Below, one piece after another: positions 18,073 to 52,258 of a stretch of DNA of 64,000 bases. Every line of letters starts with the position of its first letter. Within the stretch, counting starts at the first letter, position 1. The stretch covers positions 3,224,001-3,288,000 of the forward strand of contig NZ_JAFBBV010000001.1 of the NCBI RefSeq assembly GCF_016907365.1, written 5' to 3'. A model generated the notes under the pieces. The model was not told the origin of the DNA and did no database searches. It saw nothing but the letters and a program-made list of their open reading frames with translations. Source of the DNA: Oerskovia paurometabola. Its GTDB lineage: Bacteria; Actinomycetota; Actinomycetes; Actinomycetales; Cellulomonadaceae. Made by a program: the position numbers and the translations under genes.

Positions 18073-18144
18073 GGGCGGGGTGAGCGCGTGCCCGTGCGGC
18101 GCGGGGAGTACGCACGCACCCCGGCGACGTGGAAAGGTTGGGCC

Positions 18145-20439: not shown

Positions 20440-20462
20440 CCGCGCCGGGCTCCGCGCCCACG

Positions 20463-20508
20463 ACGACGACGGCCGGTCACCTCGCGGGAGGAGACCGGCC
20501 GTCGTCGT
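20463..20508. terminator. Bidirectional terminator after glgB
   Basis: Perfect 16-bp arms (20463-20478 and 20493-20508) with a 14-nt loop, between the convergent glgB and the thioredoxin-like gene. Confidence 0.85.
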
Positions 20509-20523
20509 GCGCGGGCGCTGGCG

Positions 20524-21474: not shown

Positions 21475-21494
21475 GGCTACATCCTATGAAGAAT

Positions 21495-21538
21495 CCGGCC
21501 GTGCGCCGCTCGTCTCGCGACGGGCGGCGCACGGCCGG
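21495..21538 (-). terminator. Terminator after the lipoprotein gene
   Basis: Perfect 15-bp arms (21495-21509 and 21524-21538) with a 14-nt loop, between the leftward lipoprotein gene and the next leftward gene. Confidence 0.8.
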
Positions 21539-21591
21539 GACGACGGGCGGGGCGGGGACCGCGGGCGCGGCCGGCCCCGGGGGCGGGATCG

Positions 21592-23822: not shown

Positions 23823-24083
23823 CGAGTTTTCCCTTCGTCATGGACAATCCACAATAGAGGCGAACGTGGGCCGGATTCGAAAGTTCGCCGGATGGCGACG
23901 ATCGCCGCAGACTCTTCACGAACTCCTCGCGACACCCTGACGGTACCCATTCCGGGTATTCAGGACACAGCCGGGCCACGTATCCTGGTGGACGATCCAC
24001 AGGTCGGGCTGCCGGTGACGCGCCGGCACTCATCCCCCGACACCCATGCTGGCGTGGACCAGCCCAAGGCGGAAGGTCGACCC
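23823..24083. promoter_or_regulatory. Divergent promoter region with two short inverted repeats
   Basis: It separates the leftward membrane-protein gene from the rightward DivIVA-like gene. GGCGAAC (23859-23865) pairs with GTTCGCC (23883-23889) across 17 nt, and TACCC (23944-23948) pairs with GGGTA (23954-23958) across ATTCC. A TATCCT at 23981-23986 could be a -10 element for the rightward gene. No gene was seen. Confidence 0.35.
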
Positions 24084-25481: not shown

Positions 25482-25485
25482 CGAG

Positions 25486-26022
25486 ATGACGACCGACGGC
25501 GACGGCACGGGACGCACGGCTCCCGGGTCGTCGCCGTCGTCGCACCCGGAGGGGGTCGCGGGCACGGGCAGCGGTTCCGGCGCGCCGCCCGCCGGTACCG
25601 GCCGGCCCGACGACGTCGCCGCCTGGCGTGCCCAGCGCACCGAGGCCGCGGCACACCAGGCGGCCGAGCTCGAACGGCGCCGCGCGCAGGAGTCCGTCGA
25701 GGCGGCGGTCCTCCTGCGCGAGTTCGTCGCCGAGGCCGGGCGTCGCGGCATCGCGCCCGTGCCGCTCCAGGCCCGGTCGTACGCGGGCGACGCGACGTAC
25801 CGGACCCGCACCCTCGGCTGGTACCTGCGCAAGAACCGGACGCTCGCGGTCGGCACCGACGGCGCGTTCTACGTCCTCAGCGTTCCCGGCGGTCTCTCGG
25901 CCCGGCTGCGCGGCGCGGTCCTCACGCCCTCGGACCCCCCGCTCGTGCTCGGCAAGGGCGGCCGCGACGGCGAGTCGATCTCGCTCGCCGACGCCGTCGC
26001 GCTGGTCCTCGAGCGCGGCTGA
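25486..26022 (+). CDS. Conserved hypothetical protein
   Basis: A 178-residue soluble protein starting 4 nt after the DivIVA-like gene, so almost certainly in one operon with it. About 45 low-complexity residues (Gly, Ser, Pro) are followed by a helical stretch (VAAWRAQRTEAAAHQAAELERRRAQES) and a compact domain with YRTRTLGWYLRKNRTLAVGTDGAFYVLSVPG. The last part suggests a small beta-rich fold similar to actinobacterial proteins of unknown function. No catalytic residues can be named. Coupling with the coiled-coil protein is the only clue to its role. Confidence 0.65.
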   Translation: MTTDGDGTGRTAPGSSPSSHPEGVAGTGSGSGAPPAGTGRPDDVAAWRAQRTEAAAHQAAELERRRAQESVEAAVLLREFVAEAGRRGIAPVPLQARSYAGDATYRTRTLGWYLRKNRTLAVGTDGAFYVLSVPGGLSARLRGAVLTPSDPPLVLGKGGRDGESISLADAVALVLERG

Positions 26023-26064
26023 CCGGCGGCCGCGGCCGACCGACGCCGCCCGGCTCCCCCGACG

Positions 26065-26859
26065 TCACCCCTTGGCAGTCGCCCAGAGGTCCCCGAGCGC
26101 GTTCGCGACCGCTGCCGGTTCCTCGACCGCGCTCATGTGACCGGCGGACTGCACCAGGACGAGCGAGGTGCCGCGCGCGGCGTCGACCATGTGCTCGGCC
26201 GCCTCGACGGGCGTCAGGGTGTCCTCCTCGCCCACGACCACCGTGATCGGGCCCGCGAAGCGGGCCAGGACCTCGGTGCGGTCCGGGCGGGCGGCCATGG
26301 CGCGCTGGGCCCACGCGACGCCGTCGGGCCGCTGGGAACGGATCCACTCCTCGAGGCGAGCCGTCAGCGCGGGGCGCGCGACCTTGCTCGTCGCCCCGAG
26401 GAGCGCGCCCGGCATGCCGAGCACGGCGTCGACGGTGGCGCTGCTCGTGACGGCCTCGGCGATGCGCAGGCGGTTGGCGCGCGCCTCGTCGGTGTCCGCG
26501 GTGGACTTGGTGTCCACGAGGCCCAGCGCGACCGTGAAGTCCGGGTGCCTCTCGGCGGCCGCGAGCGCGACGTACCCGCCCATCGACATGCCGACGACGA
26601 CCGCGCGCTCGACGCCCGCGGCTCGCGCCGCAGCGACCACGCCGTCCGCGGCGGTCTCGATCGAGGCGGGCTCGGCGCCGAGCGGGCTCTGGCCCGCGCC
26701 CGGGAGGTCGACCGCGAGGACGGTGGCACCGTCCGGCAGGGCGGCGGCGACGTCGAGCCACATGCGGTGGTCGAACGGGAAGCCGTGCACGAGGAGCAGA
26801 GGCAGGCCGTGCCCGTGGCGCAGGGTGTGGAGAGCGAGGCGTCGGTCGGTCGTGGTCAT
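26065..26859 (-). CDS. Alpha/beta hydrolase
   Basis: A 264-residue soluble enzyme of the alpha/beta hydrolase fold. LLLVHGFPFDHRMW carries the oxyanion-hole HG motif, VVGMSMGGYVA the nucleophile elbow with Ser as nucleophile, VVVGEEDTLTP the acid region, and VQSAGHMSAVEEP the catalytic His. The length and the pattern are those of esterase or lactonase members such as 3-oxoadipate enol-lactonase relatives; the substrate is unknown. Its ATG overlaps the stop of the upstream hydrolase gene (ATGA), so the two are coupled. Confidence 0.85.
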   Translation of the reverse strand: MTTTDRRLALHTLRHGHGLPLLLVHGFPFDHRMWLDVAAALPDGATVLAVDLPGAGQSPLGAEPASIETAADGVVAAARAAGVERAVVVGMSMGGYVALAAAERHPDFTVALGLVDTKSTADTDEARANRLRIAEAVTSSATVDAVLGMPGALLGATSKVARPALTARLEEWIRSQRPDGVAWAQRAMAARPDRTEVLARFAGPITVVVGEEDTLTPVEAAEHMVDAARGTSLVLVQSAGHMSAVEEPAAVANALGDLWATAKG

Positions 26860-27824
26860 GGTTCCTGTCCCGTCGTCGGTGGCTGGACGTGCGTACGGCT
26901 GGCGTCGTAGGAGGCCTGGTCGGTGGTCTCGGTGTCCGTCCCGGTCTCGGTCGCCGCGTCCCACGTCGTGGGCAGCGGCACGGGGAACCCGGGCAGCACG
27001 TGCGCGACGATCTCGTCGAGCACGCGACGGACCGACGGCTCCCCGACCCACAGGTGCTTGGCTCCCTCGACGGCGATGACCTCGGCCTGGGGCACGCGTG
27101 CGAACCGCCGGCGGGCCTCGTCGGGACGCAGGTAGTCGTCGAGCTCGGGGACCAGGACCACGAGCGGCTTGCCGAACGCGGCCCACCGGTCCAGGTCCTC
27201 GTCGGTCGCACGGTGCAGGGGCGGGGAGAGCAGGATCGCGCCCTCGATGCCCGGGTCGGTGCCGTGCTTGAGCGCGATCTCGGTCCCGAACGACCACCCC
27301 ACGAGCCACCGGTTCGGCAGGTCGTGGAACTCGGCGAGCTCGATCGCGGCGGCGACGTCGAAGCGCTCGGCCTCGCCGCCGTCGAACGTGCCCTCGCTCG
27401 TCCCTCGCGGCGACGACGTGCCGCGCGTGTTGAACCGCAGCACCGCGAGGTCCGCGAGCGCCGGCAGGCGCCACGCCGCCTTGCGGTAGACGTGGGAGTC
27501 CATGTAGCCGCCGTGCGTGGGCAGCGGGTGCAGCGTGATCAGCGTGCCCGACGGCGCCGCGTGCGCCGGGAGCGCGAGCTCGCCCACGAGGGTCAGGCCG
27601 TCCGCGGTGTGCAGCTCGACGTCCTCACGGCGGGCCGGCAGGACCGTGAGCGAACGGATCGGGGCGCCGTGCTCGGCCGGCTTTCCCTCGGGGGCCGTGG
27701 GCACCGCGGGGGGCGCCTGCTGCTCGGGCTGCACGGCGGCGACCGGAGCCGCGGACCGGTCTGCGGCCTGTGCGGCGGGCTCGTCGGGGCGGTCGGACGC
27801 GGGGTCGGGACGGTGCGCGTTCAT
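26856..27824 (-). CDS. Alpha/beta hydrolase, YsgA-like (dienelactone hydrolase-type)
   Basis: A 322-residue protein with a disordered N-terminus of about 55 residues and a C-terminal tail. The core has LITLHPLPTHGGYMDSHVYRKAAW, LRFNTRGTSSPRGTSEG, and LVGWSFGTEIALKHG, in which GWSFG is the nucleophile elbow; the His is probably in AKHLWVGEP. The THGG...NTRG pattern is that of the short-chain acyl/serine hydrolases related to the YPR147C/YsgA type (COG2945). The ATG at 27824 gives the longest plausible protein. It forms a two-gene unit with the next hydrolase. Substrate unknown. Confidence 0.8.
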   Translation of the reverse strand: MNAHRPDPASDRPDEPAAQAADRSAAPVAAVQPEQQAPPAVPTAPEGKPAEHGAPIRSLTVLPARREDVELHTADGLTLVGELALPAHAAPSGTLITLHPLPTHGGYMDSHVYRKAAWRLPALADLAVLRFNTRGTSSPRGTSEGTFDGGEAERFDVAAAIELAEFHDLPNRWLVGWSFGTEIALKHGTDPGIEGAILLSPPLHRATDEDLDRWAAFGKPLVVLVPELDDYLRPDEARRRFARVPQAEVIAVEGAKHLWVGEPSVRRVLDEIVAHVLPGFPVPLPTTWDAATETGTDTETTDQASYDASRTHVQPPTTGQEP

Positions 27825-27861
27825 CACGACCGAGCCTAGCCCGCGGTTCCGCGAGCGCAGG

Positions 27862-28161
27862 TCAGCGCCGTCGTTCGCGCGCCGCCCAGCATCCCGAGTG
27901 CCAGTGCCGGCGGTCCTCGAGGGCCGAGGCCGCGCCGAACATCGAGTCGTTGGCCCACGCGACCACGTGGCTCGTGCCCGCCGGGATGGTCTGACGGCAG
28001 CCGGGGCACACGTAGGACTTGTCCCCCGAGCGCACGGTGCGGACCGACCACTCGCCGTCGGACCCCGACTCGGAACGCAGCCCGCCGAGGGCACGCCCCA
28101 GGTCGAGGGGCGCGGGCTCTGCTCCCCAGGGGCGACGACGGGAGGGACGCTTCGACGGCAT
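27862..28161 (-). CDS. Small zinc-ribbon-like protein
   Basis: A 99-residue basic protein. YVCPGCRQTIPAGTSHVVAW, followed by DRRHWHSGCW, gives two CxxC-type cysteines plus a C-terminal His/Cys pair, most likely one zinc site. A widely conserved actinobacterial family with the same CPGC...HWH..CW layout exists and has no assigned biochemical function, although some members are annotated as ATP/GTP-binding. The basic start (MPSKRPSRRRPWG) suggests binding to nucleic acid. It is separate from the hydrolases by 37 nt and divergent from the FKBP gene. Confidence 0.75.
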   Translation of the reverse strand: MPSKRPSRRRPWGAEPAPLDLGRALGGLRSESGSDGEWSVRTVRSGDKSYVCPGCRQTIPAGTSHVVAWANDSMFGAASALEDRRHWHSGCWAARERRR

Positions 28162-28297
28162 CCGTCCATTGTCCCTGCTGCGGCCCTCTCCCAGCGGCCT
28201 CCCAGAGAGTGCGGCTAGAGTGACCTGGCCTGCAACCCGTGCCCGGCACCGTGTTCACTCCCGGTCGTGCGCGGAGACCCCCGACCGAAGGATCCTT

Positions 28298-29248
28298 GTG
28301 AAGCTCCGTACCTCTCGCGGCCTCGTCGCGATCGCCCTGGGGACCGCCCTGGTCCTCTCCGGCTGCGCCAGCGGCAACGACGGTGGCGCCAGCCCCTCGC
28401 CCAGCGAGTCGGCCGCCAGCGACGTCCCGACGCCCTCCGCGGAGGACGTCGCGGCGCTCGAGGCCGTGACGGTCACGGGCGAGGCCGGCGCCGAGCCCAC
28501 CGTGGAGTTCGAGAAGCCGTTCACGGTCTCGGCCGCGGTCGCCCGCTCCCTGAGCGACGGAGACGGTGACACGATCACCAAGGGCCAGCAGATCTCCATG
28601 CAGTCGGTCGCCTTCCTGGGTACCGACGGCAGCAAGGCGGGGTCCACGTGGGAGAAGGGCAGCCCTGAGCCGCTCCTGCTGTCGGACGACATCTACCCGC
28701 AGCTCCTCGACGTCGTCGTGGGCAAGAAGGTCGGCACCCGCTTCCTCTTCGCCGGCCCGACCGGCGACGGTTCGCAGACGCTCCTGACCGTCGGTGAGAT
28801 CGTCGACACGAAGGACGTGCCGACCCGGGCCGAGGGCGAGGCCGTGACCCCGGCCGAGGGCCTGCCCGTCGTCACGCTCGACGACTCGGGCAAGCCGAGC
28901 ATCGACATCCCCGAGGGTTACGCGGCCCCGACCGAGCTGGTCACCCAGACCCTGATCAAGGGCGACGGCCCCGAGGTCACGGCCGACAGCACGATCACGG
29001 CGCACTACACGGGCTGGACGCTCGACGGCAAGGTCTTCGACTCCTCGTGGGAGAACGGCACACCCATGACGATCCCGCTCTCGAACCTCATCGAGGGCTG
29101 GAAGCAGGGGCTCACCGGACAGACCGTCGGCAGCCAGGTGCTCCTGGTCGTCCCCGCGTCGCTCGCCTACGGCGAGGCGGCGAGCGACAGCAACCCGCTG
29201 GGTGGCCAGACGCTGGTCTTCGTGCTCGACGTCCTCGACGCCTCCTGA
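28298..29248 (+). CDS. FKBP-type peptidyl-prolyl cis-trans isomerase, lipoprotein
   Basis: A 316-residue lipoprotein: basic start, hydrophobic core and lipobox LVLSGC, then a Ser/Pro-rich linker. The C-terminal FKBP domain (about residues 225-316) is complete: ITAHYTGWTLDGKVFDSSWENG, SNLIEGWKQGLTGQTVGSQVLLVVPASLAYGE and GGQTLVFVLDVLDA keep the aromatic and Asp residues of the active pocket. The middle region (FEKPFTVSAAVARSLSDGDGDTITKGQ) looks like a second, degenerate FKBP-like domain. It should help fold exported proteins at the membrane surface. GTG 28298 follows AAGGA. It is alone in its unit and ends at a 15-bp hairpin. Confidence 0.92.
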   Translation: MKLRTSRGLVAIALGTALVLSGCASGNDGGASPSPSESAASDVPTPSAEDVAALEAVTVTGEAGAEPTVEFEKPFTVSAAVARSLSDGDGDTITKGQQISMQSVAFLGTDGSKAGSTWEKGSPEPLLLSDDIYPQLLDVVVGKKVGTRFLFAGPTGDGSQTLLTVGEIVDTKDVPTRAEGEAVTPAEGLPVVTLDDSGKPSIDIPEGYAAPTELVTQTLIKGDGPEVTADSTITAHYTGWTLDGKVFDSSWENGTPMTIPLSNLIEGWKQGLTGQTVGSQVLLVVPASLAYGEAASDSNPLGGQTLVFVLDVLDAS

Positions 29249-29398: not shown

Positions 29399-29893
29399 AT
29401 GAGCACAGAGCGCGAAGTCATGACGTGGGAGCTGTTCGGCACCGCGTCCAGGCAGCTGGCCGAGCAGGTGGTGGCCGGCGGCTTCCTGCCCGACGTCGTC
29501 GTCGCGATCGCCCGCGGCGGGCTCCTGCCCGGTGGGGCCGTGGCCTACGCGCTGGGGACCAAGGGTGTGGGGACGCTCAACGTCGAGTTCTACACGGACA
29601 TCGGCCAGACGCTCGCCGACCCGCGCGTCCTGCCCCCGCTCATGGACACGTCCGAGCTCCCGGGGTCCAAGGTCCTCGTGGTCGACGACGTCGCGGACTC
29701 GGGCCGCACGCTCGCCCTGGTCATGGACATGCTCGCCGAGCACGGCACCGAGGCCCGCTCCGCGGTGCTCTACACCAAGCCGCGCACGATCATCCAGCCG
29801 GACTTCGCCTGGAAGGAGACCGACCTGTGGATCACGTTCCCGTGGTCGGCCGAGCCTCCTGTGGAGGGTGCGATGTCGAGGCCGAACGACTGA
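29399..29893 (+). CDS. Phosphoribosyltransferase family protein
   Basis: A 164-residue type I phosphoribosyltransferase. VLVVDDVADSGRTLALV is the PRPP-binding motif, and VAIARGGLLPGGAVAYAL carries the N-terminal PPi loop. The TWELFGTASRQLAEQV start and the DLWITFPW ending are those of the XGPRT-like/hypoxanthine phosphoribosyltransferase group in actinobacteria. It probably salvages a purine base with PRPP to the nucleotide; which base cannot be told. The ATG at 29399 fits. It converges on the carboxylic acid reductase gene and marks the left border of the specialised-metabolism island. Confidence 0.82.
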   Translation: MSTEREVMTWELFGTASRQLAEQVVAGGFLPDVVVAIARGGLLPGGAVAYALGTKGVGTLNVEFYTDIGQTLADPRVLPPLMDTSELPGSKVLVVDDVADSGRTLALVMDMLAEHGTEARSAVLYTKPRTIIQPDFAWKETDLWITFPWSAEPPVEGAMSRPND

Positions 29894-29998: not shown

Positions 29999-32900
29999 CT
30001 ACGACGCCGCGAGCGTCGTCGGGAGCGTCGTCGGGAGGATCGACTGTTCGAGGACCTGCTCGACGTCTCGAAGACACTTCATGAGGAACTCGAACGTCAA
30101 GGGCGCCACGAGCTCTCCTGCGCCAGCCTCACGGAGGGCCCTGGAGAGTCGAGGCGACGCGATGAGCGATCCGAAGGCGGGCTCGTCCGGCTCCCGTAGC
30201 CCCTCCAGGAGGGGCACCAACGACGCGCGTCTGTCGTCCTCGTCGAGCGCGCTCAACGCCGACCGGAACCGCTGCATCCAGTCGTCGTAGGAGTCGACCC
30301 GGGTCAACGGCACGCCGGCATCCATCAGCCAGTCGACCATCCTGTCGAGCGAGATACCGTCGTCGAACGGATTCACCAGATGGTAGGTCGTGTAGCCCCG
30401 CGAGGCGCGACGCTGGACCAGCGTCGTCACAGCGCTCGCGACGGAGTCGACGGGCAGGCCGTCGTAGTGCGCGCGCCCGCCGTCGTGGCGGTAGAACGAG
30501 GCCGGGACCAGACCTGTGCGAGTCACGCTGAAGAGGAGCCGCGTGAACGTGTCGGTGACGTTGATCTGTCCGCCGTGCTGGGAGTGCGCCAAGATCATGC
30601 TGGATCGGAACACGGTCACCGGTAGCCCGTAGCGCTCGTGAGCGTCACGAAGAAGCACCTCGCCGGCCCACTTCGACGTCGCATAACCGTCGACGATCCC
30701 CTCGGTCGATCGGACCTCGGGGAGCTCCTCGCGGATGTCTACGAACTCGTCCAGCGGCGACGAGCGTCCGCGCAGGAGCGCGGTGGCGATGCTCGACATG
30801 AACGTGACGGGCTTGAGCGCGCCCGTGGTGGCCAAACGGATGATCTCCGCCGTGCCGTTGACGTTGGCGGCGAAGAGCTCACGGTAGGGCAGCGCATGGT
30901 TGACCATCGCCCCGGCGTGCACGATATCGCCGACCTCACGCACGAGCCGGCCCCAGACGGCCTCGTCGAGGCCCAGTCGCGGCTCCGCGAGGTCCCCCGC
31001 GATCACGTCGAGATGCGTCGCGACACTGTCGAACTCCGCCAACAGGTCGGTCGACGTGGAGAATGCGCCCCGTAGTCGCTCACGGGCGGACGCGTCGTCA
31101 CGTGCGCGCACGAGGCACACGACACGACTGCCCGTGTCTGCGAACCGGTGCAGCAGGTCGAGGCAGAGGAAGCGTCCGAGGTAGCCGCTCGCGCCGGTGA
31201 CAAGGATCGATCGGGGCTGGGGGTTCACCGAAACCGCGAGAGAGCTCTCCGAGCTCGACGCGAACCGGGGAGCCGTGAGATCCGTGGCTCGCAGACGTCC
31301 GGCTTCCGCGCCATGGATCTCGTCGAACGACACCGAACGTTGGTCCGACGCCCGCTTGACGTCGATGTGGTCGGCTAGCTCACGCAGCGAGTAGGAGTCG
31401 CTGACCACCATGTCGACAGAGACGCGGACACCGAAGACCTGCTCCAGGACCCGGGCCAGATGGACAGCTGTGAGCGAGTCGCCACCGAGGCTCCGGAACC
31501 TCGACGTCTCGTCGATGTCATCGGGATCGGCCTGCAGCGACACGGCGACGGCACGGCGTACGGTCGTGACGGTGTCCCCCTCGGCCCCGTGGGCGTACAG
31601 CCACTCAAGAAGCTCGTCCCGGCCGGATCGCAACTCCTCGTACAGCCCTGACAGCCGGGCTTCGTACTTCTCGGTCAGCCGCGGTCGGATCGGCTTGCGA
31701 TGGTCCGAGAGGAGTCCGTTGCTCTCGGAGAACGGCTCGTGCTCGATCAGGACCGCAGAGGGGATCTCGTAGGAGTTCAGGCGAGCCTCGGCGGCGACCC
31801 TCCTCAGCTCCTGGAGCATTCGCGCGCGGATCGTCGGGCCGCCCTCAGCCCCGGCTTCGGCCCTGGTGGCCTCCGACGGCACGATGACCGCGAGGGTCGA
31901 CGACTGATCGCTTCGGCCGTAGAGGAACGCCTGGTGGATGGCGGGGCTCCCGGCGACATACGTGGCCTCCAGCGACGGCAGCGCCACGAACTCCCCTTGA
32001 GCGAGCTTGATGATGGCGTTCTTGCGGTCGATGATGCGGATGTTGCCGTCGGCGTCGACGGCGGCGATGTCACCGGTCCGGTAGTAGCCGTCGACCGTGA
32101 AGATCTCCCGGTCGAGATCAGGGCGGTTGAAGTACCCGGGCACCGTCGAGGTGCTCTTGATCAGCAGCTCACCACGGGCATCCGGGCGATCCGACGTGAA
32201 GTACCCGAGCTCCGGGACGTCGTCGAGGCGATAGTCGATCACCGGCGGACGGAGGAAGCGCGCGTCTGCCAGGACCCCGCCGATCTCCGTCGTGCCGTAG
32301 AGCTCGTGCAGCTCGATCCGGAGCAGCGACTCCATGAAGCTCTTGAGCTCAGCAGAGACCGGCGCAGACGTGCAGCTTGCCCAGCGCACACGACCTCCGA
32401 GGAGCCGCTCGCGCATCTCCCCGAGGACGCCGACCTCGTCCAGATCGTCAGAAGGGCTCGAGCCGTGGAGACGACGCTGATACTCCTGATGAAGCAGCTC
32501 ACAGACGCGTGGCACCAGAGACAGCTCTGTGGGCCGGGCAAGGCTGAGGTCGTCGAAGAAGCTCGACAGGTTGGTCGTCGACGCGAAGTACGTCACGCCG
32601 CCACGCGCCAAGGTGCTGCGGACGGAGGAGTGGCCGGCGACATGACTCATCGGCATGTAGTGGAAGCTCGCGATGTCGACCTCTCCGGCGAAGAACGCCG
32701 ACCACCCTTCTCCGCCCCACATCTCCGCGACGAGCCGGTCCGTGTACATGGCCCCCTTGGGGGCCCCGGTGCTTCCGGACGTGTAGAGGAGCATCGCGAG
32801 GTGGTCCTCGGAGCGCTGCGCCGACGCGGCATCGTCCGCTCCGATGGCGTCGAGGTCGAGGGTCTCCGGGACGATGCGCCCGGTCCGGGTCAGGTCGTCG

Positions 32901-33406
32901 ACGGCTTGGCGGTGCTCCGCCTGGCCGCCACGGTAGTCGAGGACGATCACCCGCTCCAGGCTGGGATGATCGGCGATCAGATCGGCGGCCCGATCAAGGA
33001 GCGAGACGGAGACCGCCAGCAGTCGAGGCGTCGACTCCTCGAGGATGGCGGAGTGCTGCGCCAGCGAACCACTGGTCTGGAGCGGCACCGTGGTGATGCC
33101 CGCGAGGTTGCAGGCGAAGTCGACGGTGGTGAGGTCGATGCCCGCGTGTCCGAGCAGCGCGACACGGTCGCCCTCGCGAACGCCGACGACCGCCGCGGTG
33201 GTCGCGACCGGAGTGCGGAGCTGCACGACGACCGACCGGACTCGCCGTTCGAGCTCACCGTAGGTCAGTGTCTCGTACGAGTCGAGCAGCCGGTGATCCA
33301 GATGGTCGATCTGCTTGTTCGTCATGGGTATCTGCCGGCGGTCCGCCAACGCTGGACGCTGGGCGAAACGCTCGAACGCGGAAGTCATCAAGGCTGCGAG
33401 TCGCAT
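29999..33406 (-). CDS. car: Carboxylic acid reductase (adenylation-carrier-reductase)
   Basis: A 1135-residue multidomain enzyme that activates a carboxylic acid with ATP, loads it on a phosphopantetheine arm and reduces it with NADPH to the free aldehyde. Adenylation domain: LLYTSGSTGAPKGAMYT (about residues 201-217), YGTTEIGG and YYRTGDIAA. Carrier domain: LGGDSLTAVHL with S644 as the arm site. Reductase domain: VTGASGYLGRF near 735, then SSIATALL and YATSKWAGE near 905 with the catalytic Tyr and Lys. Length and order match bacterial CARs (Nocardia CAR, mycobacterial FadD9), which are near 1170 residues. It starts 3 nt after the regulator's stop. No phosphopantetheinyl transferase is in the window. 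The acid substrate is inferred from the neighbours (DHHA). Confidence 0.88.
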   Translation of the reverse strand: MRLAALMTSAFERFAQRPALADRRQIPMTNKQIDHLDHRLLDSYETLTYGELERRVRSVVVQLRTPVATTAAVVGVREGDRVALLGHAGIDLTTVDFACNLAGITTVPLQTSGSLAQHSAILEESTPRLLAVSVSLLDRAADLIADHPSLERVIVLDYRGGQAEHRQAVDDLTRTGRIVPETLDLDAIGADDAASAQRSEDHLAMLLYTSGSTGAPKGAMYTDRLVAEMWGGEGWSAFFAGEVDIASFHYMPMSHVAGHSSVRSTLARGGVTYFASTTNLSSFFDDLSLARPTELSLVPRVCELLHQEYQRRLHGSSPSDDLDEVGVLGEMRERLLGGRVRWASCTSAPVSAELKSFMESLLRIELHELYGTTEIGGVLADARFLRPPVIDYRLDDVPELGYFTSDRPDARGELLIKSTSTVPGYFNRPDLDREIFTVDGYYRTGDIAAVDADGNIRIIDRKNAIIKLAQGEFVALPSLEATYVAGSPAIHQAFLYGRSDQSSTLAVIVPSEATRAEAGAEGGPTIRARMLQELRRVAAEARLNSYEIPSAVLIEHEPFSESNGLLSDHRKPIRPRLTEKYEARLSGLYEELRSGRDELLEWLYAHGAEGDTVTTVRRAVAVSLQADPDDIDETSRFRSLGGDSLTAVHLARVLEQVFGVRVSVDMVVSDSYSLRELADHIDVKRASDQRSVSFDEIHGAEAGRLRATDLTAPRFASSSESSLAVSVNPQPRSILVTGASGYLGRFLCLDLLHRFADTGSRVVCLVRARDDASARERLRGAFSTSTDLLAEFDSVATHLDVIAGDLAEPRLGLDEAVWGRLVREVGDIVHAGAMVNHALPYRELFAANVNGTAEIIRLATTGALKPVTFMSSIATALLRGRSSPLDEFVDIREELPEVRSTEGIVDGYATSKWAGEVLLRDAHERYGLPVTVFRSSMILAHSQHGGQINVTDTFTRLLFSVTRTGLVPASFYRHDGGRAHYDGLPVDSVASAVTTLVQRRASRGYTTYHLVNPFDDGISLDRMVDWLMDAGVPLTRVDSYDDWMQRFRSALSALDEDDRRASLVPLLEGLREPDEPAFGSLIASPRLSRALREAGAGELVAPLTFEFLMKCLRDVEQVLEQSILPTTLPTTLAAS

Positions 33407-33409
33407 AGA

Positions 33410-34354
33410 TCATTGCTCCACGGGTGTCTGAGGCGATGCACGCCTGTCGTCCGACGCGTCGCTCTCGTCGTGGCCGCGCACCGGCTGTCCTGAGTCCTGC
33501 GCGCCTGTGACCTGCAGACGACTGGGCAGGAGGCTCAGGGCGTCTTTGGTTGCGGGGTCGTTCGGTGTATAGACCTCGAGGCGGTGGTCCGGAGACTCCG
33601 GTTGCAGCCACACCTGGTACTCGACATCCATCGCCCCCAGCGTCGGGTGAGAGAGGACCATGGTGCCGACGGTGCAGTCAGCGACGTCGCCTTCGGCCCA
33701 GAGGCTGGCGAAATGATCGCTCTTCATCGACAGCTCACCGATCAGCTCCGCCAGTCGGGCGTCACTGGGATATCTGCCGGAGGTGAGACGCAGGTACGCC
33801 ACATGGATGCGGGCGAGGTCATTCCAATTGCTGTAGAGATCGCGCGTCAACGAGTCCAAGAAGAAGGACCAGGGGACGGACGGTCTGCGGTGGATATCAA
33901 GCGGCGCCTCGAAAGGAAGGTGCTCGAAAAGCAGCTCATGACCGGAGTGGTTCCAGGCGAGAACGTCGCCACGGCGCCCCAGCACCACTGCGGGCATCGT
34001 CTCGTCGAGTGACTCGAACAACGAGAGCACCCGTTGATGGGGCTTCTCCGGAGCGTCACGTACCATTCGCGAACGGACGGGCGAGTGTGCGAGGTTGTGC
34101 AGGTGCGTGCGCTCCGCGTGATCGAGCCGCATCACAGATGCGAGCGCGTCCAGGACCTGCCACGACGCGGTGCCCGTCTGATCCTGCTCGATCCGTGTGT
34201 AGTAGCCGACGCTGACGCCCGCGAGGCGAGCGAGCTCCTCCCGCCGAAGCCCCGGCACGCGGCGGGGCGCGGCCCCTGGCTCCAAGCCGATGGAACCAGG
34301 GTCGGTCTTGTCGCGTCGCGTCTTCAGAAAGCTACCGAGCGTCTCGCCTTTCAT
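33410..34354 (-). CDS. XRE-type regulator with MmyB-like ligand-binding domain
   Basis: A 314-residue regulator. The N-terminal helix-turn-helix (RRVPGLRREELARLAGVSVGYYTRIEQDQ, about residues 30-58) is followed by an MmyB-like sensor domain: VLAWNHSGHELLFEHLPFEA, WSFFLDSLTRDLYSNWNDLARIHVAYLRLTSGRYPSD, and HPTLGAMDVEYQVWLQPESPDHRLEVYTP. This is the standard actinobacterial architecture of the PF17765 group, whose members bind small ligands. ATG 34354 starts the protein at the first conserved part. It forms an operon with the reductase and is divergent from the exporter-phz genes; the region between holds candidate operators. It probably controls the whole island. Confidence 0.9.
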   Translation of the reverse strand: MKGETLGSFLKTRRDKTDPGSIGLEPGAAPRRVPGLRREELARLAGVSVGYYTRIEQDQTGTASWQVLDALASVMRLDHAERTHLHNLAHSPVRSRMVRDAPEKPHQRVLSLFESLDETMPAVVLGRRGDVLAWNHSGHELLFEHLPFEAPLDIHRRPSVPWSFFLDSLTRDLYSNWNDLARIHVAYLRLTSGRYPSDARLAELIGELSMKSDHFASLWAEGDVADCTVGTMVLSHPTLGAMDVEYQVWLQPESPDHRLEVYTPNDPATKDALSLLPSRLQVTGAQDSGQPVRGHDESDASDDRRASPQTPVEQ

Positions 34355-34395
34355 GTTTCTCAGGCTAGCTCGCCGCGGGGTCGTCACACAGGCTG

Positions 34396-34480
34396 GAAGG
34401 TACCCCTCTCTGGTGCACCCAGGCGCGCCGGGGGCGTCCGCTCGAAAGGCCTGGTGGGTGCACGTGCGAGGGATACCTTC
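34396..34480. promoter_or_regulatory. Large inverted repeat in the divergent promoter of the island
   Basis: Outer arms 34396-34408 and 34468-34480 (GAAGGTACCCCTC with GAGGGATACCTTC) pair in 12 of 13 positions. Inner arms 34413-34420 and 34456-34463 (GTGCACCC with GGGTGCAC) pair perfectly. Both share one axis, giving 21 of 25 pairs with a 35-nt centre. It begins 41 nt before the regulator start and lies 68 nt before the exporter start, so one bound protein could act on both promoters. It could also be a cruciform. Confidence 0.6.
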
Positions 34481-34507
34481 GTGAGGAGTACCACGGTGGC
34501 GAGTACC
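34471..34507. promoter_or_regulatory. Three phased direct repeats of a GAGTACC motif
   Basis: GGATACC (34471-34477), GAGTACC (34486-34492) and GAGTACC (34501-34507) begin exactly 15 bases apart. The first overlaps the right outer arm of the large inverted repeat. Even spacing near the promoter of the exporter suggests cooperative binding of the regulator. The last one ends 40 nt before the chosen exporter start. Confidence 0.5.
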
Positions 34508-34547
34508 CACGACCGTGACATTGTCGCCCCACCAATTCCCCCCAAGC

Positions 34548-36059
34548 ATGGGGACCATGGACGTCAATCAGCAGACAGCGAAGAGACACGTGACGACCGC
34601 GCCGGCCAGTTCGTGGTGGGGACTCATCGCGACGCTGGGCCCGGTCCTCGTGGTGGCCATGGACGGCTCGATCCTGTTCCTCGCGATGCCCAGCATCAAC
34701 GAGGCGATCCAGCCGACGTCTGACCAGAGCTTGTGGATTCTCGACATCTACGGATTCGCCGTCGGCTCGTTGCTCATCACCTTCGGAAATCTCGGCGACA
34801 GGTTCGGCCGAAAGAAGCTGCTCGTCCTCGGAGCGGTCGTGTTCGGGGTCGGCTCCCTGTGCGGCGCGTTCTCCCCCACCCCCGAGGCCCTCATCGCCTC
34901 GCGGGCGCTGATGGGCCTGGGCGGAGCGACTCTTCTGCCCTCCTGTCTCGCCGTGATCAGTGAGCTGTTCAGCAACCCGACGCAACGCGCACGAGCCATC
35001 GGCATCTTCGCGGCGACCTTCGCCGCAGGGTTCGTCATCGGCCCCATCATCGGCGGCATCTTGCTCAACCACTTCTGGTGGGGCTCGGTCTTCCTGGTCA
35101 ACATCCCCGTCATCGTCGTGTTCCTCCTCGCCGCCCCGGTCCTCCTGCGCGAGGTCCACGGAGCACGTCCGGGGAAGATCGATCTCCCGAGCGTCGTCAT
35201 GTCGGCGTCCGGACTGCTCCTGGCGATCTACGGGGTGAAGCATGCCGCCACCTACGGCATCGACTGGCCCGCCGCCGGTCTGGTCGTCCTCGGCACGGCC
35301 GTCCTGATCGTCTTCGTCCGACGCCAGAAGCGGTTGGAGATGCCGTTGCTCGACGTCAGCCTGTTCAAGGAGCATGTCTTCGCGGTCGCGATCCTCACAG
35401 GGCTCCTCTCACTGTTCGTGTGGTCAGCCGCTGCGTTCTCGAGCATGACCTATCTGCAGTCCGTGCTCGGACTCTCAGTTCTGCAGGCGGCAGTCCTCGC
35501 GGTCCCCGGCGCGGTCATCCTCACGCTGTCGAGCGTGCTGACCCCGCGTCTGGTCGAGCGCATCGGCGCCCGGAACGCCCTGACCGTCTGCCACTTCTCC
35601 ATGGCGGCGGGCATGTTCCTCCTCCTCTTCACCAGCCCTGGGACGGGCTCGACCTTCTACATCGCCTCGACGATCGTGGCAGGGGTCGGCTTCGGCATCT
35701 CGTTCAGCCTGGTCGCCGACACCGCGGTGGGCGCCGTTCCCGAGTCACGAGCGGGAGCAGCTGGCGCGATCGCCGAGACGAGCAACGAGATCGGCAACGC
35801 TCTGGGCATCGCCCTCCTGGGCTCGCTGCTGACCGTGGTCTTCCGCGCCACGTACCCGGGCGACGAGACCGGCATCGCCGAAGTCGCGGACGGTCCCGGC
35901 ATCGCGTCGCCCGCCTACGAGCAGGCGCAAGCCGCCTTCCTGACCGGCTATCACACGGTCGCCGTCGTCGCCGCCGTGATCTGTTGCGGACTTGGACTGC
36001 TCGCCCTCCGCTGGATTCCCCAGGAGAGCGTCGACGCCTCCGTCTGTCAGACCCCGTAG
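34548..36059 (+). CDS. MFS transporter, DHA2 (14-helix) drug:H+ antiporter
   Basis: A 503-residue membrane protein with about 14 hydrophobic helices. PVLVVAMDGSILFLAMPSI is the first helix of the QacA/SmvA/EmrB type, GNLGDRFGRKKLLVLG the motif A loop, RALMGLGGATLLPSCLAVISELF the motif B region and GFVIGPIIGGILL the motif C helix. DHA2 exporters remove cationic or amphipathic small molecules. ATG 34548, ATG 34557 and GTG 34515 are all in frame; none has a strong box, and I chose the middle option. It is the first gene of the rightward unit that continues to the phz genes after 184 nt without a visible terminator. It is probably the exporter or self-resistance gene for the product. Confidence 0.85.
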   Translation: MGTMDVNQQTAKRHVTTAPASSWWGLIATLGPVLVVAMDGSILFLAMPSINEAIQPTSDQSLWILDIYGFAVGSLLITFGNLGDRFGRKKLLVLGAVVFGVGSLCGAFSPTPEALIASRALMGLGGATLLPSCLAVISELFSNPTQRARAIGIFAATFAAGFVIGPIIGGILLNHFWWGSVFLVNIPVIVVFLLAAPVLLREVHGARPGKIDLPSVVMSASGLLLAIYGVKHAATYGIDWPAAGLVVLGTAVLIVFVRRQKRLEMPLLDVSLFKEHVFAVAILTGLLSLFVWSAAAFSSMTYLQSVLGLSVLQAAVLAVPGAVILTLSSVLTPRLVERIGARNALTVCHFSMAAGMFLLLFTSPGTGSTFYIASTIVAGVGFGISFSLVADTAVGAVPESRAGAAGAIAETSNEIGNALGIALLGSLLTVVFRATYPGDETGIAEVADGPGIASPAYEQAQAAFLTGYHTVAVVAAVICCGLGLLALRWIPQESVDASVCQTP

Positions 36060-36243
36060 CGCGGTCGGCCCGGAGATCCCTCGACACCACCGCGCGAGCA
36101 CCTCGGGCGCGTCGAGATACTGCCCCGCCCCGCTCTGCTCCCTCTGCCCTGCGTTGCTGGGGCCGGCCTTGCTGTTCTCCGCCGCGCCCGACTCCGCCCC
36201 ACCCGACCCTGCCCTGCCCGGCCCTCAGAAGAAGGACACGCGA

Positions 36244-37434
36244 ATGACCACTGTCACAACCGCCGTCCACGACGCCGCGACCGAAGCACGACGCACCGTC
36301 GCCGCGCTCCCTGCGGCGCAGCAGCCGACCTGGCGCGACGAGCCCGCGCGCGCGCAAGCGCTCGTCGCGCTCGGGGCCGGCCACCAGATCGTGTCCGAGT
36401 CGGAGGTCACGGACCTTCGCGCGAGACTCCGAGCGGTCGCCGACGGCAGGGCGGTCGTGCTCCAGGCCGGCGACTGCGCCGAGCCGATGACGGACACCTC
36501 CACCGTCGTGGTGGAAGCGAAGGCGCGAGCGATCGACGACATGAGCGCAGCCCTGGCCGCGGCGGGCTCACGGCCCGTCATTCGCATCGGGCGCATCGGC
36601 GGCCAATTCGGCAAACCGCGATCACAGACGCACGAGATGATCGGTGGGGCCTTGGTCCCGACCTATCGCGGCCCCCTGGTCAACGATCCCTTTCCCTCTG
36701 CGCGGGCGCGCGAGCACGAGCCGCAGCGGCTGCTACGCGCGCGCGAATCCGCTCATACTGTCACAATGGCGCTTCGTCGCCGCGCCGGAAACACCGTCTG
36801 GACGAGCCACGAGGCTCTCGTGCTGGACTACGAGCTGCCGCAATTGAGACTGACTTCTCATGACGAGGTGATGTTGACGTCCGCCCACACGATCTGGATC
36901 GGCGCGCGGACGAATCAGCTCGACCACGCACACGTCGCGCTCGCCTCGCGAATCATCAACCCTGTCGGATGCAAGGTTTCCGCCGGTATCTCCCCTAGCG
37001 AGCTGCTGAGTCTCGTGGAGAAGCTCAATCCCCACCGCGAGAGCGGAAAGCTGATGCTGATCGCGCGAATGGGTTCAGGAATCGACCGGCTCCCGGCGCT
37101 GATGGAAGCGGTCCGTCGCGAAGGGCACCAGCCGATCTGGATGAGCGATCCGATGCACGGAAACACGACGACGGCTGCCGACGGCCGCAAGACGCGGTAC
37201 ATCGAGTCGATCACCGAGGAGCTCAGGCGGTTTCAGGACGTCGCCCGAGCGAGCGACTCGAGGGCGGGCGGCGTGCACCTGGAGACGACCATCGACGACG
37301 TCCGGGAATGCCTTGCCAACAAGCACGATCTTCGTGACGGCCATGCCCCGTACACCACGTTGTGCGACCCGCGACTGACCGTGGCGCAAGCCATCGAGGT
37401 CTTGGGCCACTGGCAGATCGGAGATCGGTCATGA
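36244..37434 (+). CDS. phzC: Class II 3-deoxy-7-phosphoheptulonate (DAHP) synthase, PhzC-type
   Basis: A 396-residue type II DAHP synthase that joins phosphoenolpyruvate and erythrose-4-phosphate, feeding the shikimate pathway. VVLQAGDCAEPM, PVIRIGRIGGQFGKPRS, NPVGCKVSAGISPSEL and WMSDPMHGNTTTA (metal and substrate residues) are intact. It lacks the long N-terminal extension of the mycobacterial AroG type, which agrees with the shorter PhzC form. ATG 36244 follows AGAAGGA with 8-nt spacing. Its stop overlaps the phzD start (ATGA). In phenazine and related clusters this enzyme, often less feedback-inhibited, raises chorismate supply. Confidence 0.92.
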   Translation: MTTVTTAVHDAATEARRTVAALPAAQQPTWRDEPARAQALVALGAGHQIVSESEVTDLRARLRAVADGRAVVLQAGDCAEPMTDTSTVVVEAKARAIDDMSAALAAAGSRPVIRIGRIGGQFGKPRSQTHEMIGGALVPTYRGPLVNDPFPSARAREHEPQRLLRARESAHTVTMALRRRAGNTVWTSHEALVLDYELPQLRLTSHDEVMLTSAHTIWIGARTNQLDHAHVALASRIINPVGCKVSAGISPSELLSLVEKLNPHRESGKLMLIARMGSGIDRLPALMEAVRREGHQPIWMSDPMHGNTTTAADGRKTRYIESITEELRRFQDVARASDSRAGGVHLETTIDDVRECLANKHDLRDGHAPYTTLCDPRLTVAQAIEVLGHWQIGDRS

Positions 37435-38099
37435 CGACGAACACCCACTGGGACGCGGCTCAGGCGATCCGCTACGCGACACCGCGGCCCGAGGAGTACC
37501 CCGAGCCCATCGTCCGATGGCGGGCCTCGGCGGCGCGGTCGGTGCTCCTCGTGCACGACATGCAGCGCTACTTCCTGGACCGGTTCGACGTCACCCAGCA
37601 ACCGGCCAAGGGGCTCGTCGAGAACATCGAACGCGCGCTCGCCACGGCCCGGCGGGTGGGTGTCCCGGTCGTCTACACCGCACAGCCGGGGAGCATGACG
37701 ACGGAAGAGCGTGGACTGTTGAGGGACTTCTGGGGTCCAGGCATGACGGTGTCGCCCGAGCACCGTCGTGTGATCGACCGCCTCGCCCCGCTACCCGAGG
37801 ATCTCGTCCTGGACAAGTGGCGCTACTCGGCGTTCGCGCGGTCGTCCCTCGACGAGCACATCCGTGGGATGCGACGCGATCAGCTGGTGATCTGCGGCAT
37901 CTACGCGCATGTCGGCGTCCTCGCTACGGCGCTGGACGCGTACACCAGGGACATCGAGACGTTCGTGCTCGCCGATGCCGTAGCGGATTTCGACCGGACA
38001 CAACATCTGAACGCGTTGGACTACACCGCACGCACCTCCGCTCGGGTGATCCCCACCGCCACGGCCCTCGACGAATGGGAACGAACCGATGAGAACTAG
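37431..38099 (+). CDS. phzD: Isochorismatase family hydrolase, PhzD-type
   Basis: A 222-residue enzyme that in the phenazine pathway splits 2-amino-2-desoxyisochorismate (ADIC) into pyruvate and DHHA. Visible: D43 in VLLVHDMQRYFLDRF, K129 in LVLDKWRYSAFARS, and the LVICGIYAHVGVLATALDAY active-site strand and helix typical of PhzD/EntB. QPGSMTTEERGLLRDFWGPGM is the substrate loop common to PhzD and isochorismatases. Length (about 207-225) is normal. Starts within the last bases of phzC and is overlapped by phzE by 11 nt, so all three are coupled. The adjacent PhzE makes the ADIC substrate more likely than isochorismate. Confidence 0.9.
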   Translation: MTTNTHWDAAQAIRYATPRPEEYPEPIVRWRASAARSVLLVHDMQRYFLDRFDVTQQPAKGLVENIERALATARRVGVPVVYTAQPGSMTTEERGLLRDFWGPGMTVSPEHRRVIDRLAPLPEDLVLDKWRYSAFARSSLDEHIRGMRRDQLVICGIYAHVGVLATALDAYTRDIETFVLADAVADFDRTQHLNALDYTARTSARVIPTATALDEWERTDEN

Positions 38100-39954
38100 C
38101 ACCAGCGATTCGTTCGCATTGATCATGAAGGACGGCGTGGTGCATCACTACACCGGCGATTCCGTGCTGTTCGACGACATCGAGCAGGCCCAGTCCGAGA
38201 CCGGCGAGCTGCTCCTGGCCATCCCGTTCCGTCAGGCGCTCCGAGGCGGTCGGCCAACATCTCCCGTGGAACGTTCCGCACGCGAGCATGTGTCCGCCAT
38301 TCGCGTGCGGGGCCACGAGGAGATGTCGGTCGAGAACTTCCTGCAGGCGGGCACGTCGTCGGCGATCGAGCTTCTCGATGGCCATTTCGAGGTGGACGAC
38401 GTGGAATTCGCTCAGCGGGTGCGGTCCGTGGTGGAGAACGAGATCCGCGCCGGACACGGCTCGAACTTTGTGCTGCACCGGACCTATCGGGGACGGGTCG
38501 CGCTCCGCAGCGTGGAGACGGAGATGTCGATCTACCGCTCGCTCCTTCAGGCCGAGTCCGGCGCCTACTGGACTTTCCTGGTGCACTTTCCCGATCACAG
38601 CCTGATCGGCGCGAGTCCGGAGATGCACCTTCGCCGGGACCCTGACCGGCTCACCACCATGAACCCGATCTCGGGCACCTATCGATATCCACGAGGAGGC
38701 CCGGACGAGCGATCTCTGCGAGCGTTCCTCCAGGACCCGAAGGAGCGCAACGAGCTCTACATGGTCGTCGACGAGGAGCTCAAGATCATGTCGGACCTCT
38801 GCGACGAGCGACCGTGGATCTCCGGCCCCCGGCTGCGCTTCATGTCGAGCCTCGCTCACACCGAGTACTTCGTCCACGGCCACAGCTCGCTGCCCTGGTC
38901 CTCAGCGATTCGCCGGTCGCTCGTCGCTCCGACCATCCTGGGGAGCCCGCTGGAGTCCGCGTTTCGTATGGCCGCACGCAACGACCTCAGCGCCCGGAAC
39001 TACCTGGGCGGCGTCCTCGCCCACGTCTCCGGACAGGGGGACGAGAGCTTCGATTCCGCGATCCTGATCCGCACCGCCTGCCTCGAGGAGTCCGGGGAGG
39101 TCTCGATCCCCATCGGATCCACCATCGTCCGAGACTCCGATCCGACCCTTGAGGCGGCCGAGACCACAGCGAAAGCCTCAGGAGTGCTTGCCGCCTTCTC
39201 TCGCCTGGACGGAACGGCACTCGAAGCCCTGGCGCAGGAGTTCCTGGAGCAGAGGACCGACGAGGTGGCGGACTTCTGGAATCACACCGCAGGAGCGTCG
39301 TCGAGTCTGCGGATGACCAAGGCTGTCGTCATCGACCACGAGGACCGCTTCACGGGCATGCTCGCCGCCCACCTTCGATCCATGGGGCTCCAGGTGTCGG
39401 TGATCGCCGGCCCCCCGACCGAGGCCCAGCTGGACGATGCTGATCTGCTCGTGCTCGGACCTGGGCCGGGCGATCCGAACGACGAAGCCGATGCCCGGAT
39501 CGCAGCGGCACGCGAGCTTGCCCGATGGGCCGTCGTCACACGCCGGATCCCGACCCTCGCCGTCTGCCTCTCTCACCAGCTCGTCTGCCGGGAGCTCGGC
39601 CTCGCCGTCAGAAGACTGCCGCAGCCGAATCAGGGGAGCCAACGGGAGATCAACTTCTTCGGCGAGCGTGTGCGCCTCGGCTTCTACAACTCCTTCAGTG
39701 CCTACGCAGAACCGGGCTCCGCTCACGATCTCGAGGTCGCCGCGGACGCGACGACCGGCGAGGTCCACGCGATCAGAGCCGACGGCCTCATCGGACTGCA
39801 GTTTCACCCGGAGTCCATCCTGAGCGTCGACGGAGCCAAGGTGCTACGACGGTCCGTCGCATCCCTCCTGGCTCCGACGTCGTCCCCGCTCTGGCAGACA
39901 GCTGCTGGGCTCGACCTGGATCTTCAGACGCCCATGAGGCCTGCCGTCATCTGA
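38089..39954 (+). CDS. phzE: 2-amino-2-desoxyisochorismate synthase, PhzE-type
   Basis: A 621-residue fusion. The N-terminal chorismate-binding domain (to about 400) has GASPEMHLRR, PISGTYRYPRGG, ELYMVVDEELKIMSDLC and RNYLGGVLAHVSGQ. The C-terminal glutamine amidotransferase class I domain has VLGPGPGDPND, LAVCLSHQLV with nucleophile C493, and LQFHPESI with the catalytic His and Glu. The order (synthase then amidotransferase) is that of PhzE rather than split TrpE/TrpG. No lyase step is expected, so ADIC is released. The stop is 10 nt before an octanucleotide repeat, and no phzF, phzA/B or phzG follows before the nrd operon. Confidence 0.92.
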   Translation: MRTSTSDSFALIMKDGVVHHYTGDSVLFDDIEQAQSETGELLLAIPFRQALRGGRPTSPVERSAREHVSAIRVRGHEEMSVENFLQAGTSSAIELLDGHFEVDDVEFAQRVRSVVENEIRAGHGSNFVLHRTYRGRVALRSVETEMSIYRSLLQAESGAYWTFLVHFPDHSLIGASPEMHLRRDPDRLTTMNPISGTYRYPRGGPDERSLRAFLQDPKERNELYMVVDEELKIMSDLCDERPWISGPRLRFMSSLAHTEYFVHGHSSLPWSSAIRRSLVAPTILGSPLESAFRMAARNDLSARNYLGGVLAHVSGQGDESFDSAILIRTACLEESGEVSIPIGSTIVRDSDPTLEAAETTAKASGVLAAFSRLDGTALEALAQEFLEQRTDEVADFWNHTAGASSSLRMTKAVVIDHEDRFTGMLAAHLRSMGLQVSVIAGPPTEAQLDDADLLVLGPGPGDPNDEADARIAAARELARWAVVTRRIPTLAVCLSHQLVCRELGLAVRRLPQPNQGSQREINFFGERVRLGFYNSFSAYAEPGSAHDLEVAADATTGEVHAIRADGLIGLQFHPESILSVDGAKVLRRSVASLLAPTSSPLWQTAAGLDLDLQTPMRPAVI

Positions 39955-39964: not shown

Positions 39965-40026
<62 letters not shown>

Positions 40027-40222: not shown

Positions 40223-41359
<1,137 letters not shown>

Positions 41360-44860: not shown

Positions 44861-46348
<1,488 letters not shown>

Positions 46349-46392
46349 GGTGTTCCTTCGGTCGGTCGTCGGTGGATGGTCTGACTCAGGCG

Positions 46393-46406
46393 TGGAAGCG
46401 CTCTCA
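46393..46406. promoter_or_regulatory. LacI-family operator (CebR-like) before the beta-glucosidase gene
   Basis: TGGAAGCGCTCTCA is close to the TGGGAGCGCTCCCA operator of cellobiose regulators (CebR/CelR) in actinobacteria and differs from the perfectly symmetric pair before the local lacI gene. Confidence 0.75.
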
Positions 46407-46461
46407 CGTATCGATTCGATCAGCGTACCCACGCGGCCGGGCGACGTCGAGGGCGGGCCGC

Positions 46462-46509
46462 GAGCGGCGCCGTCGGGCAGGAGGACTCCCCCGCCCGACG
46501 ACGCCGCTC
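46462..46509 (-). terminator. Terminator after the GH31 gene
   Basis: Arms 46462-46478 and 46493-46509 pair over 17 positions with one mismatch and a 14-nt loop, downstream of the leftward GH31 gene and just before the GH1 promoter. Confidence 0.8.
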
Positions 46510-46551
46510 ACCCCCCCTTGCGTTCCCCCGCCGCGTGGCGTGGGGCGAGCG

Positions 46552-48831: not shown

Positions 48832-48861
48832 GGGTGCTCGGTTCCTTCGGGGTAGGTGCGG

Positions 48862-50732: not shown

Positions 50733-50761
50733 GGTCTTTCCTCGTCGTCGGAGTCCTCGGC

Positions 50762-50793: not shown

Positions 50794-50809
50794 TTCCCTG
50801 CGCTGCGGA

Positions 50810-52239: not shown

Positions 52240-52258
52240 GGGGGTCGAGCACCCGGGG

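Follow-up and report, generated by a model that had tools for sequence, protein, structure and literature searches.

The 64,000-nucleotide stretch of the Oerskovia paurometabola contig NZ_JAFBBV010000001.1 analysed here (positions 3,224,001 to 3,288,000; the window) includes a compact locus of six genes, in which a gene for a carboxylic acid reductase (CAR) lies with genes for a 3-deoxy-D-arabino-heptulosonate 7-phosphate (DAHP) synthase, PhzD and PhzE, predicted to supply trans-2,3-dihydro-3-hydroxyanthranilate (DHHA). The locus is read as a mobile, self-contained unit that would make DHHA and reduce its carboxyl carbon, with both substrate and product predicted from sequence, and a probability of about 0.6 is assigned to this reading. 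The same six functions are grouped in three more lineages, giving four clusters in total, and in one of these the DHHA-making part was apparently replaced or newly attached, with the CAR, the regulator and the pump kept as orthologues. The genes of the window are as follows.

29999..33406, minus strand: CAR of the adenylation-thiolation-reductase (A-T-R) type, 1135 aa, assigned by Pfam, NCBIfam and PDB matches; carrier Ser644, V256/H259/E368, gate residue Ser936
33410..34354, minus strand: XRE/MmyB-type regulator with HTH_31 and MLTR_LBD domains, 3 bp upstream of the CAR gene on the same strand
34548..36059, plus strand: exporter of the DHA2 type in the major facilitator superfamily (MFS), assigned by domain matches; start codon picked by eye using the relatives
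36244..37434, plus strand: phzC homologue, class II DAHP synthase, 396 aa, assigned by domain and structure matches
37431..38099, plus strand: phzD homologue, 222 aa, predicted to convert 2-amino-2-deoxyisochorismate (ADIC) to DHHA; HDMQ, KWRYSAF and GxYAH motifs
38089..39954, plus strand: phzE homologue, 621 aa, fused ADIC synthase and glutaminase domain, assigned by domain and structure matches

All six genes are intact and form two divergent units, XRE-CAR leftward and MFS-phzC-phzD-phzE rightward, with overlaps of 4 bp between phzC and phzD and of 11 bp between phzD and phzE. The CAR includes AMP-binding (residues 37–426), PP-binding (615–681) and NAD_binding_4 (736–992) domains, and its closest solved structure is 5msc (918 bits), with 5msp and 5mso also matched. 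The closest structures to PhzD and to the DAHP synthase are 1nf9 (212 bits) and 6bmc (322 bits), the latter of which we take to be a PhzC. PhzE is closest to 3r74 (404 bits), followed by the aminodeoxychorismate synthase 8hx6 (98 bits) and TrpE chains (36–51 bits). The gap between 404 and 98 bits, together with the overlap with phzD, led us to reject an anthranilate or p-aminobenzoate synthase function for phzE. The glutaminase stretches CLSHQ and QFHPES of PhzE are intact, as are the three PhzD motifs. The MFS protein matches DHA2 family models with scores under the curated cut-offs.

A scan of genome contigs gave two related loci, one on plasmid pE5100 of Pseudarthrobacter sp. NamE5 (L042) and the other in Microbacterium sp. 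TNHR37B (L043). When the window's family was scanned for the CAR (E≤1e-100), two of 221 genomes matched, namely the window's own and that of another genus (G166); both matches in an order-level sample of 396 genomes were already known. The CARs of the Pseudarthrobacter, Microbacterium and G166 clusters are 66%, 61% and 57% identical to that of the window, respectively. The XRE proteins of the three relatives share 77–87% and the MFS proteins 77–82% identity with those of the window, G166 having 77% in each case. Given that one cluster is carried by a plasmid and that the Microbacterium cluster has a TrwC-type relaxase gene (17203–20757 of that locus) about 4 kb from the CAR gene, the six-gene set seems to travel. 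No further tailoring or precursor gene was common to the relatives' neighbourhoods among 30 chosen open reading frames (ORFs) scanned around the three relatives. A phosphopantetheinyl transferase gene adjoins the Microbacterium cluster and was seen beside no other relative among those ORFs.

These results bear on an original prediction made from the sequence of the window alone. It had listed the six genes as intact, with carrier Ser644 and the active-site motifs, and had noted that PhzF, PhzA/B and PhzG were lacking from the island; both statements hold, the second by tblastn of the 64-kb window at E≤1e-6. Co-occurrence in relatives had been set beforehand as a test, and CAR, phzE and phzD were indeed found together without phzF in the three further clusters.

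The evidence that ties DHHA supply to this CAR most firmly comes from the G166 cluster. PhzE of the window is 73% and 68% identical to its Pseudarthrobacter and Microbacterium counterparts and 42% identical to that of G166; the corresponding values for PhzD are 77%, 75% and 49%. The window has a class II DAHP synthase (DAHP_synth_2) and G166 a class I enzyme (DAHP_synth_1). A PhzE tree was built from 18 sequences (four from the CAR clusters, six from the 33 plasmid records and eight from the 30 other matching genomes) and was flagged for one long row, L081; a PhzD tree included 11 sequences. In the PhzE tree the window, Pseudarthrobacter and Microbacterium enzymes form a clade with 100/100 support, and that of G166 joins two Streptomyces plasmid enzymes and one Rhodococcus plasmid enzyme (84/86, branch not starred). 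The four cluster PhzEs were united in 0% of 200 bootstrap trees and the four PhzDs in 5%, the PhzD signal being the weaker. As PhzE of G166, and less surely its PhzD, is of another lineage and its DAHP synthase of another class, this CAR was apparently combined with a DHHA module on more than one occasion. Therefore, selection seems to have kept the combination of DHHA supply and this CAR, as far as trees of few sequences indicate. The replacement is stronger evidence for the link between DHHA and the CAR than the CAR clade described next.

In the CAR tree the four phz-linked enzymes form one clade with 100/100 support and a long stem; L008_CAR, a truncated version of L039_CAR (the G166 gene), was kept there as a fifth row of the clade and dropped from the residue counts. 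Thirteen comparison CARs (one from a Curtobacterium plasmid, five from Microbacterium-family genomes, two from Pseudarthrobacter-family genomes, four from other plasmids and one from G1502) are 40–46% identical to the CAR of the window. The gap between this range and the 57–66% within the clade supports the grouping independently of the tree. Since one clade reflects one ancestry, the grouping counts as a single piece of evidence. PhzC, PhzD and PhzE are absent from the 15–27 kb around each of the 13 comparison CARs. The CAR of the Curtobacterium plasmid pTCL, considered as a further cluster, was rejected on this ground, with no phzC, phzD or phzE in 27 kb. Outside the cluster bearers, CARs at 44–46% identity occur in five of 398, two of 295 and, at a stricter limit, one of 394 genomes; all eight are free of phz genes in the surrounding stretch examined.

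Within the adenylation (A) domain, V256 and H259, just after the A4 motif, and E368, before the YGTTE motif, are fixed in all four cluster CARs, and position 259 is Arg in all 13 comparison enzymes. Roles of these positions in the pocket are presumed from the enzyme superfamily in general. That G166 has the same marks despite its different DHHA module fits a common substrate, but would fit common ancestry as well.

No PhzF, PhzA/B, PhzG or DHHA dehydrogenase gene lies inside any of the four six-gene units. Three PhzF, two PhzA/B, two PhzG and one DhbA reference gave no tblastn match in the window at E≤1e-6. At the same limit, neither PhzG query matched the related loci, and no DHHA dehydrogenase of the Lim4/DhbX type was detected in the window or in the Pseudarthrobacter and Microbacterium loci. 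The four cluster-bearing genomes, namely the window's own, G166, G582 and G583, were examined with family models. Each has one protein of the PhzF family (PF02567); in G582 and G583 it is encoded on a contig other than that of the cluster, and in G166 and the window's genome far from the cluster. PF03284 (PhzA/B), a model giving 240 bits on true PhzA/B, matched none of the four, but none of 14 control genomes either. A phenazine cluster with its remaining genes elsewhere was rejected on the basis of the PF03284 result, the position of the lone PF02567 protein and the lack, at up to two mismatches, of a second operator site (described below).

The XRE-MFS intergenic regions of the window and of the Pseudarthrobacter and Microbacterium clusters share a 23-bp element, GGTAYCCCTN5GTGYACCCA, with two copies in the window.

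34399..34421, plus strand: putative operator copy 1, exact match
34455..34477, minus strand: putative operator copy 2, exact match on the opposite strand

The two matches compare with 0.08 expected, and none of 100 shuffles had two. In G166 the element precedes the MFS gene, and a weaker copy with three mismatches precedes the XRE gene. Across the four genomes five sites were found at up to two mismatches, all at the cluster, and a reversed control pattern gave two. Because the element occurs nowhere else in the four genomes at this limit, control by the putative XRE regulator seems confined to this locus and would not extend to any phzF or dehydrogenase gene elsewhere. The original prediction had named phzF, phzA/B or phzG under the same regulator elsewhere as a finding that would speak against it, and no second operator site was found at up to two mismatches.

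The locus itself is taken to be an acquired island. It lies between a phosphoribosyltransferase gene (29399–29893) and nrdF (40223–41227) and has a G+C content of 66.8%, as compared with 74.2% on its left (20001–29000) and 71.5% on its right (46000–58000); the adjoining nrdE/nrdF are also low, at 63–64%. PhzE (E≤1e-60) and CAR (E≤1e-100) were not found in any of six other genomes of the genus. Directly after phzE, at 39967–40022, an 8-base unit, CGGGAGCA, is repeated seven times head-to-tail, perhaps close to where the island ends on the right.

The genes, their conservation, the exchange of modules and the confinement of the element to the locus are read directly from the sequences; from these we infer the activity of each enzyme, DHHA as the CAR substrate and the level of reduction. 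The extra DAHP synthase would increase supply to the shikimate pathway, PhzE would form ADIC from chorismate and glutamine, and PhzD would remove pyruvate to give DHHA. As the unit lacks both PhzF and a DHHA dehydrogenase, DHHA itself would go to the CAR. The A domain would activate it and load it onto Ser644, and the reductase (R) domain with NADPH would release the C1 aldehyde, quite possibly carrying it on to the primary alcohol, given that the Asp tied to strict two-electron reduction is Ser936 in this enzyme. The DHA2-type pump would then export the product. The XRE/MmyB protein would control both divergent transcripts, XRE-CAR and MFS-phzCDE, via the two operators between them; binding of the protein to the element is predicted, as is the direction of regulation.

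The level of reduction turns on the gate position of the R domain, which is Ser in all four cluster CARs and, in the 13 comparison enzymes, Asp in 11, Gly in one (Streptomyces Mut1) and Asn in one. The R domains MtNRP (4dqv) and MxaA (4u7w) have Gly. The gate numbering (D998 in SrCAR, D984 in NiCAR) was verified against the sequences, and this Asp is presumably the one described as reorienting the nicotinamide. It is described as an on/off residue that adopts two positions within the reductase site, with Gly at this place in fungal CARs (PMC5826065). According to a review (PMC8124467, citing Gahloth 2017), enzymes mutated at the one Asp responsible for reorienting the nicotinamide carry out a four-electron reduction to alcohol. 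A fungal R domain converts aldehydes to alcohols (PMC10168641). With the gate Asp replaced by Ser936 in all four enzymes, alcohol as the end point is no less likely than aldehyde, and we regard it as somewhat more likely than the free aldehyde.

Several observations weigh against the interpretation as a whole or in part. Four clusters in all were found. The CAR scores 1207 bits with NCBIfam NF041592, below its curated cut-off of 1300; the CAR tree was flagged by the tool for long branches that meet; and the starred branches of the PhzD tree, taken alone, are compatible with one origin. The operator pattern was derived from the very sites that it matches, so that its absence elsewhere is the independent part of the evidence. 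Ser936 is among 19 positions at which the clade has an invariant residue not shared by the other CARs, and may reflect plain divergence. The wild-type Mycobacterium marinum CAR is reported to reduce aldehydes at 16% and 66% of its rates on the acids (PMC10168641); hence, the gate residue does not decide the matter alone. Two dehydrogenases also have to be considered. A DhbA that passes the TIGR04316 cut-off (303 bits) is encoded about 474 kb away in the window's own genome and could conceivably oxidise DHHA, and in G166 a weakly matching short-chain dehydrogenase (SDR), probably generic, lies about 8 kb upstream of phzD (37% identity to DhbA over 198 aa, 88 bits).

On the strength of these dehydrogenases, one alternative has a host enzyme encoded elsewhere convert DHHA to 3-hydroxyanthranilate, which the CAR would reduce to 2-amino-3-hydroxybenzaldehyde or the benzyl alcohol, a limazepine-type route with a borrowed dehydrogenase. 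In published chorismate/DHHA pathways DHHA is presumed to be carried on to 3-hydroxyanthranilate (PMC5958127). The DhbA of the window's genome sits in a locus of siderophore type, together with isochorismate synthase and isochorismatase. None over the cut-off, however, is present in G166, G582 or G583 (best 158, 142 and 129 bits, G582 and G583 being genomes of unstated completeness), whereas the DhbA-like enzyme of G063, encoded next to phzD/E, reaches 296 bits. Moreover, L071 and L076 retain a dehydrogenase beside phzD/E, unlike all four CAR clusters. 3-Hydroxyanthranilate as the acid reduced, mentioned in the original prediction as a related acid, has thus become less likely, and we consider this route improbable.

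The original prediction favoured release after two electrons, a sub-case of the preferred reading, with the free DHHA amino-aldehyde as the end product condensing with itself or with another amine. The A-T-R architecture and catalytic motifs match those of aldehyde-forming CARs and there is no alcohol dehydrogenase among the six genes, but the change of the gate Asp to Ser in all four enzymes speaks for alcohol by the mutational report cited above. What stands of the prediction is a conserved unit of DAHP synthase, PhzD, PhzE and CAR without phzF, now with the addition that it was apparently assembled more than once; turnover of DHHA by the CAR stays a prediction, and the aldehyde as stopping point, with its self-condensation, we think doubtful. 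Less probable than either of these routes is a CAR acting on an unrelated acid, with DHHA a separate building block that meets the CAR product later. The relaxed substrate scope of characterised CARs (PMC5826065, accessible text) would allow this, but the 30 ORFs around the relatives gave no other common precursor gene, and this CAR clade appears to have gained its DHHA module more than once. That a phenazine remnant and a generic CAR became neighbours by chance would agree with the deviating G+C content of the island and its absence from the six congeners. It was rejected in view of the conservation in four lineages, the operator-like element, the phz-free comparison CARs, the CAR clade and the replaced modules, which leave it a negligible chance. 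The preferred reading in its most specific form is a horizontally moving, dedicated pathway with the gate rebuilt for alcohol, in which four-electron reduction of non-aromatised DHHA would give an amino-hydroxy-cyclohexadienyl methanol (or the aldehyde); in this detail it is proposed tentatively, with the odds somewhat against it.

DHHA is the branch point of phenazines and 3-hydroxyanthranilate-derived compounds. If the proposed pathway is correct, it would be a third, minimal DHHA branch, a new entry into small amino-cyclohexadiene chemistry and a new class of C7N metabolites. Three committed enzymes and a DAHP synthase would suffice, so that tests in a laboratory host would be easy. A CAR subfamily would also acquire a physiological role, and the gate-residue idea, alcohol versus aldehyde, a natural test. 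Open-access full-text literature, a corpus without subscription papers and patents and seen in its accessible parts, gave no description of a CAR with PhzD/PhzE or DHHA.

Other arrangements of these genes were seen along the way. On a Streptomyces anthocyanicus plasmid (L069:5067-11701), genes for DAHP synthase, PhzD and PhzE adjoin those for a peptide ligase of the PGM1 type and a protein resembling malic enzyme. Neither PhzF nor DhbA is annotated in the vicinity, and DHHA is perhaps ligated to a peptide there without aromatisation. On Burkholderia ubonensis plasmid pMSMB2035 (L070:9168-21095), phzD-phzE is followed by genes for a short AMP-binding protein, an aldehyde dehydrogenase family protein, a carrier protein and a ketosynthase, with PhzF and a protein annotated as pyridoxal 5'-phosphate synthase, presumably PhzG-like, also present, which may be another odd use of DHHA. 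Five loci of the window's family (L075, L077, L078, L081 and L082) have PhzE homologues and no PhzD, CAR, PhzF or DhbA match in the 13–18 kb examined, L081 being a whole short contig and L082 stopping at a contig end.

Compared with phenazine biosynthesis (phzA-G), the locus shares PhzC, PhzD and PhzE, i.e. the steps up to DHHA, and lacks PhzF, PhzA/B and PhzG. The cluster CARs share the A-T-R order, catalytic motifs and phosphopantetheine serine with the bacterial enzymes NiCAR and SrCAR, but form a separate clade with V256/H259/E368, Ser936 in place of the gate Asp and a score below the NF041592 cut-off. In grixazone-type aminohydroxybenzoate reduction the substrate is an aromatic acid. The Streptomyces sp. 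Mut1 plasmid (L065:2482-11345) carries the Gly-gate CAR beside 2-amino-3,7-dideoxyheptulosonate and 3-dehydroquinate synthase II genes, which we take to be grixazone-like precursor genes. In the grixazone-type system, as in the present one, the carboxyl of an amino-hydroxy ring acid is plausibly reduced, whereas the precursor route is another one there and the Mut1 CAR falls outside the cluster clade. In pyrrolobenzodiazepine systems of the limazepine/tilivalline type, release from the nonribosomal peptide synthetase (NRPS) is reductive. The closest likeness is to the chorismate/DHHA pathway to 3-hydroxyanthranilate (limazepine Lim3-6, tilivalline AroX-DhbX-IcmX-AdsX), which shares the DAHP synthase and the PhzD-type and PhzE-type enzymes leading to DHHA. 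According to PMC5958127, formation of ADIC and DHHA was demonstrated for Lim6 and Lim5, lim3-6 homologues are shared by the related pathways that it lists, and Lim4/DhbX is a putative dehydrogenase. The six-gene unit has neither a Lim4/DhbX-type dehydrogenase nor an NRPS partner module, and has a single-module CAR instead. We class it with the chorismate/DHHA pathways, as known parts with a new end.

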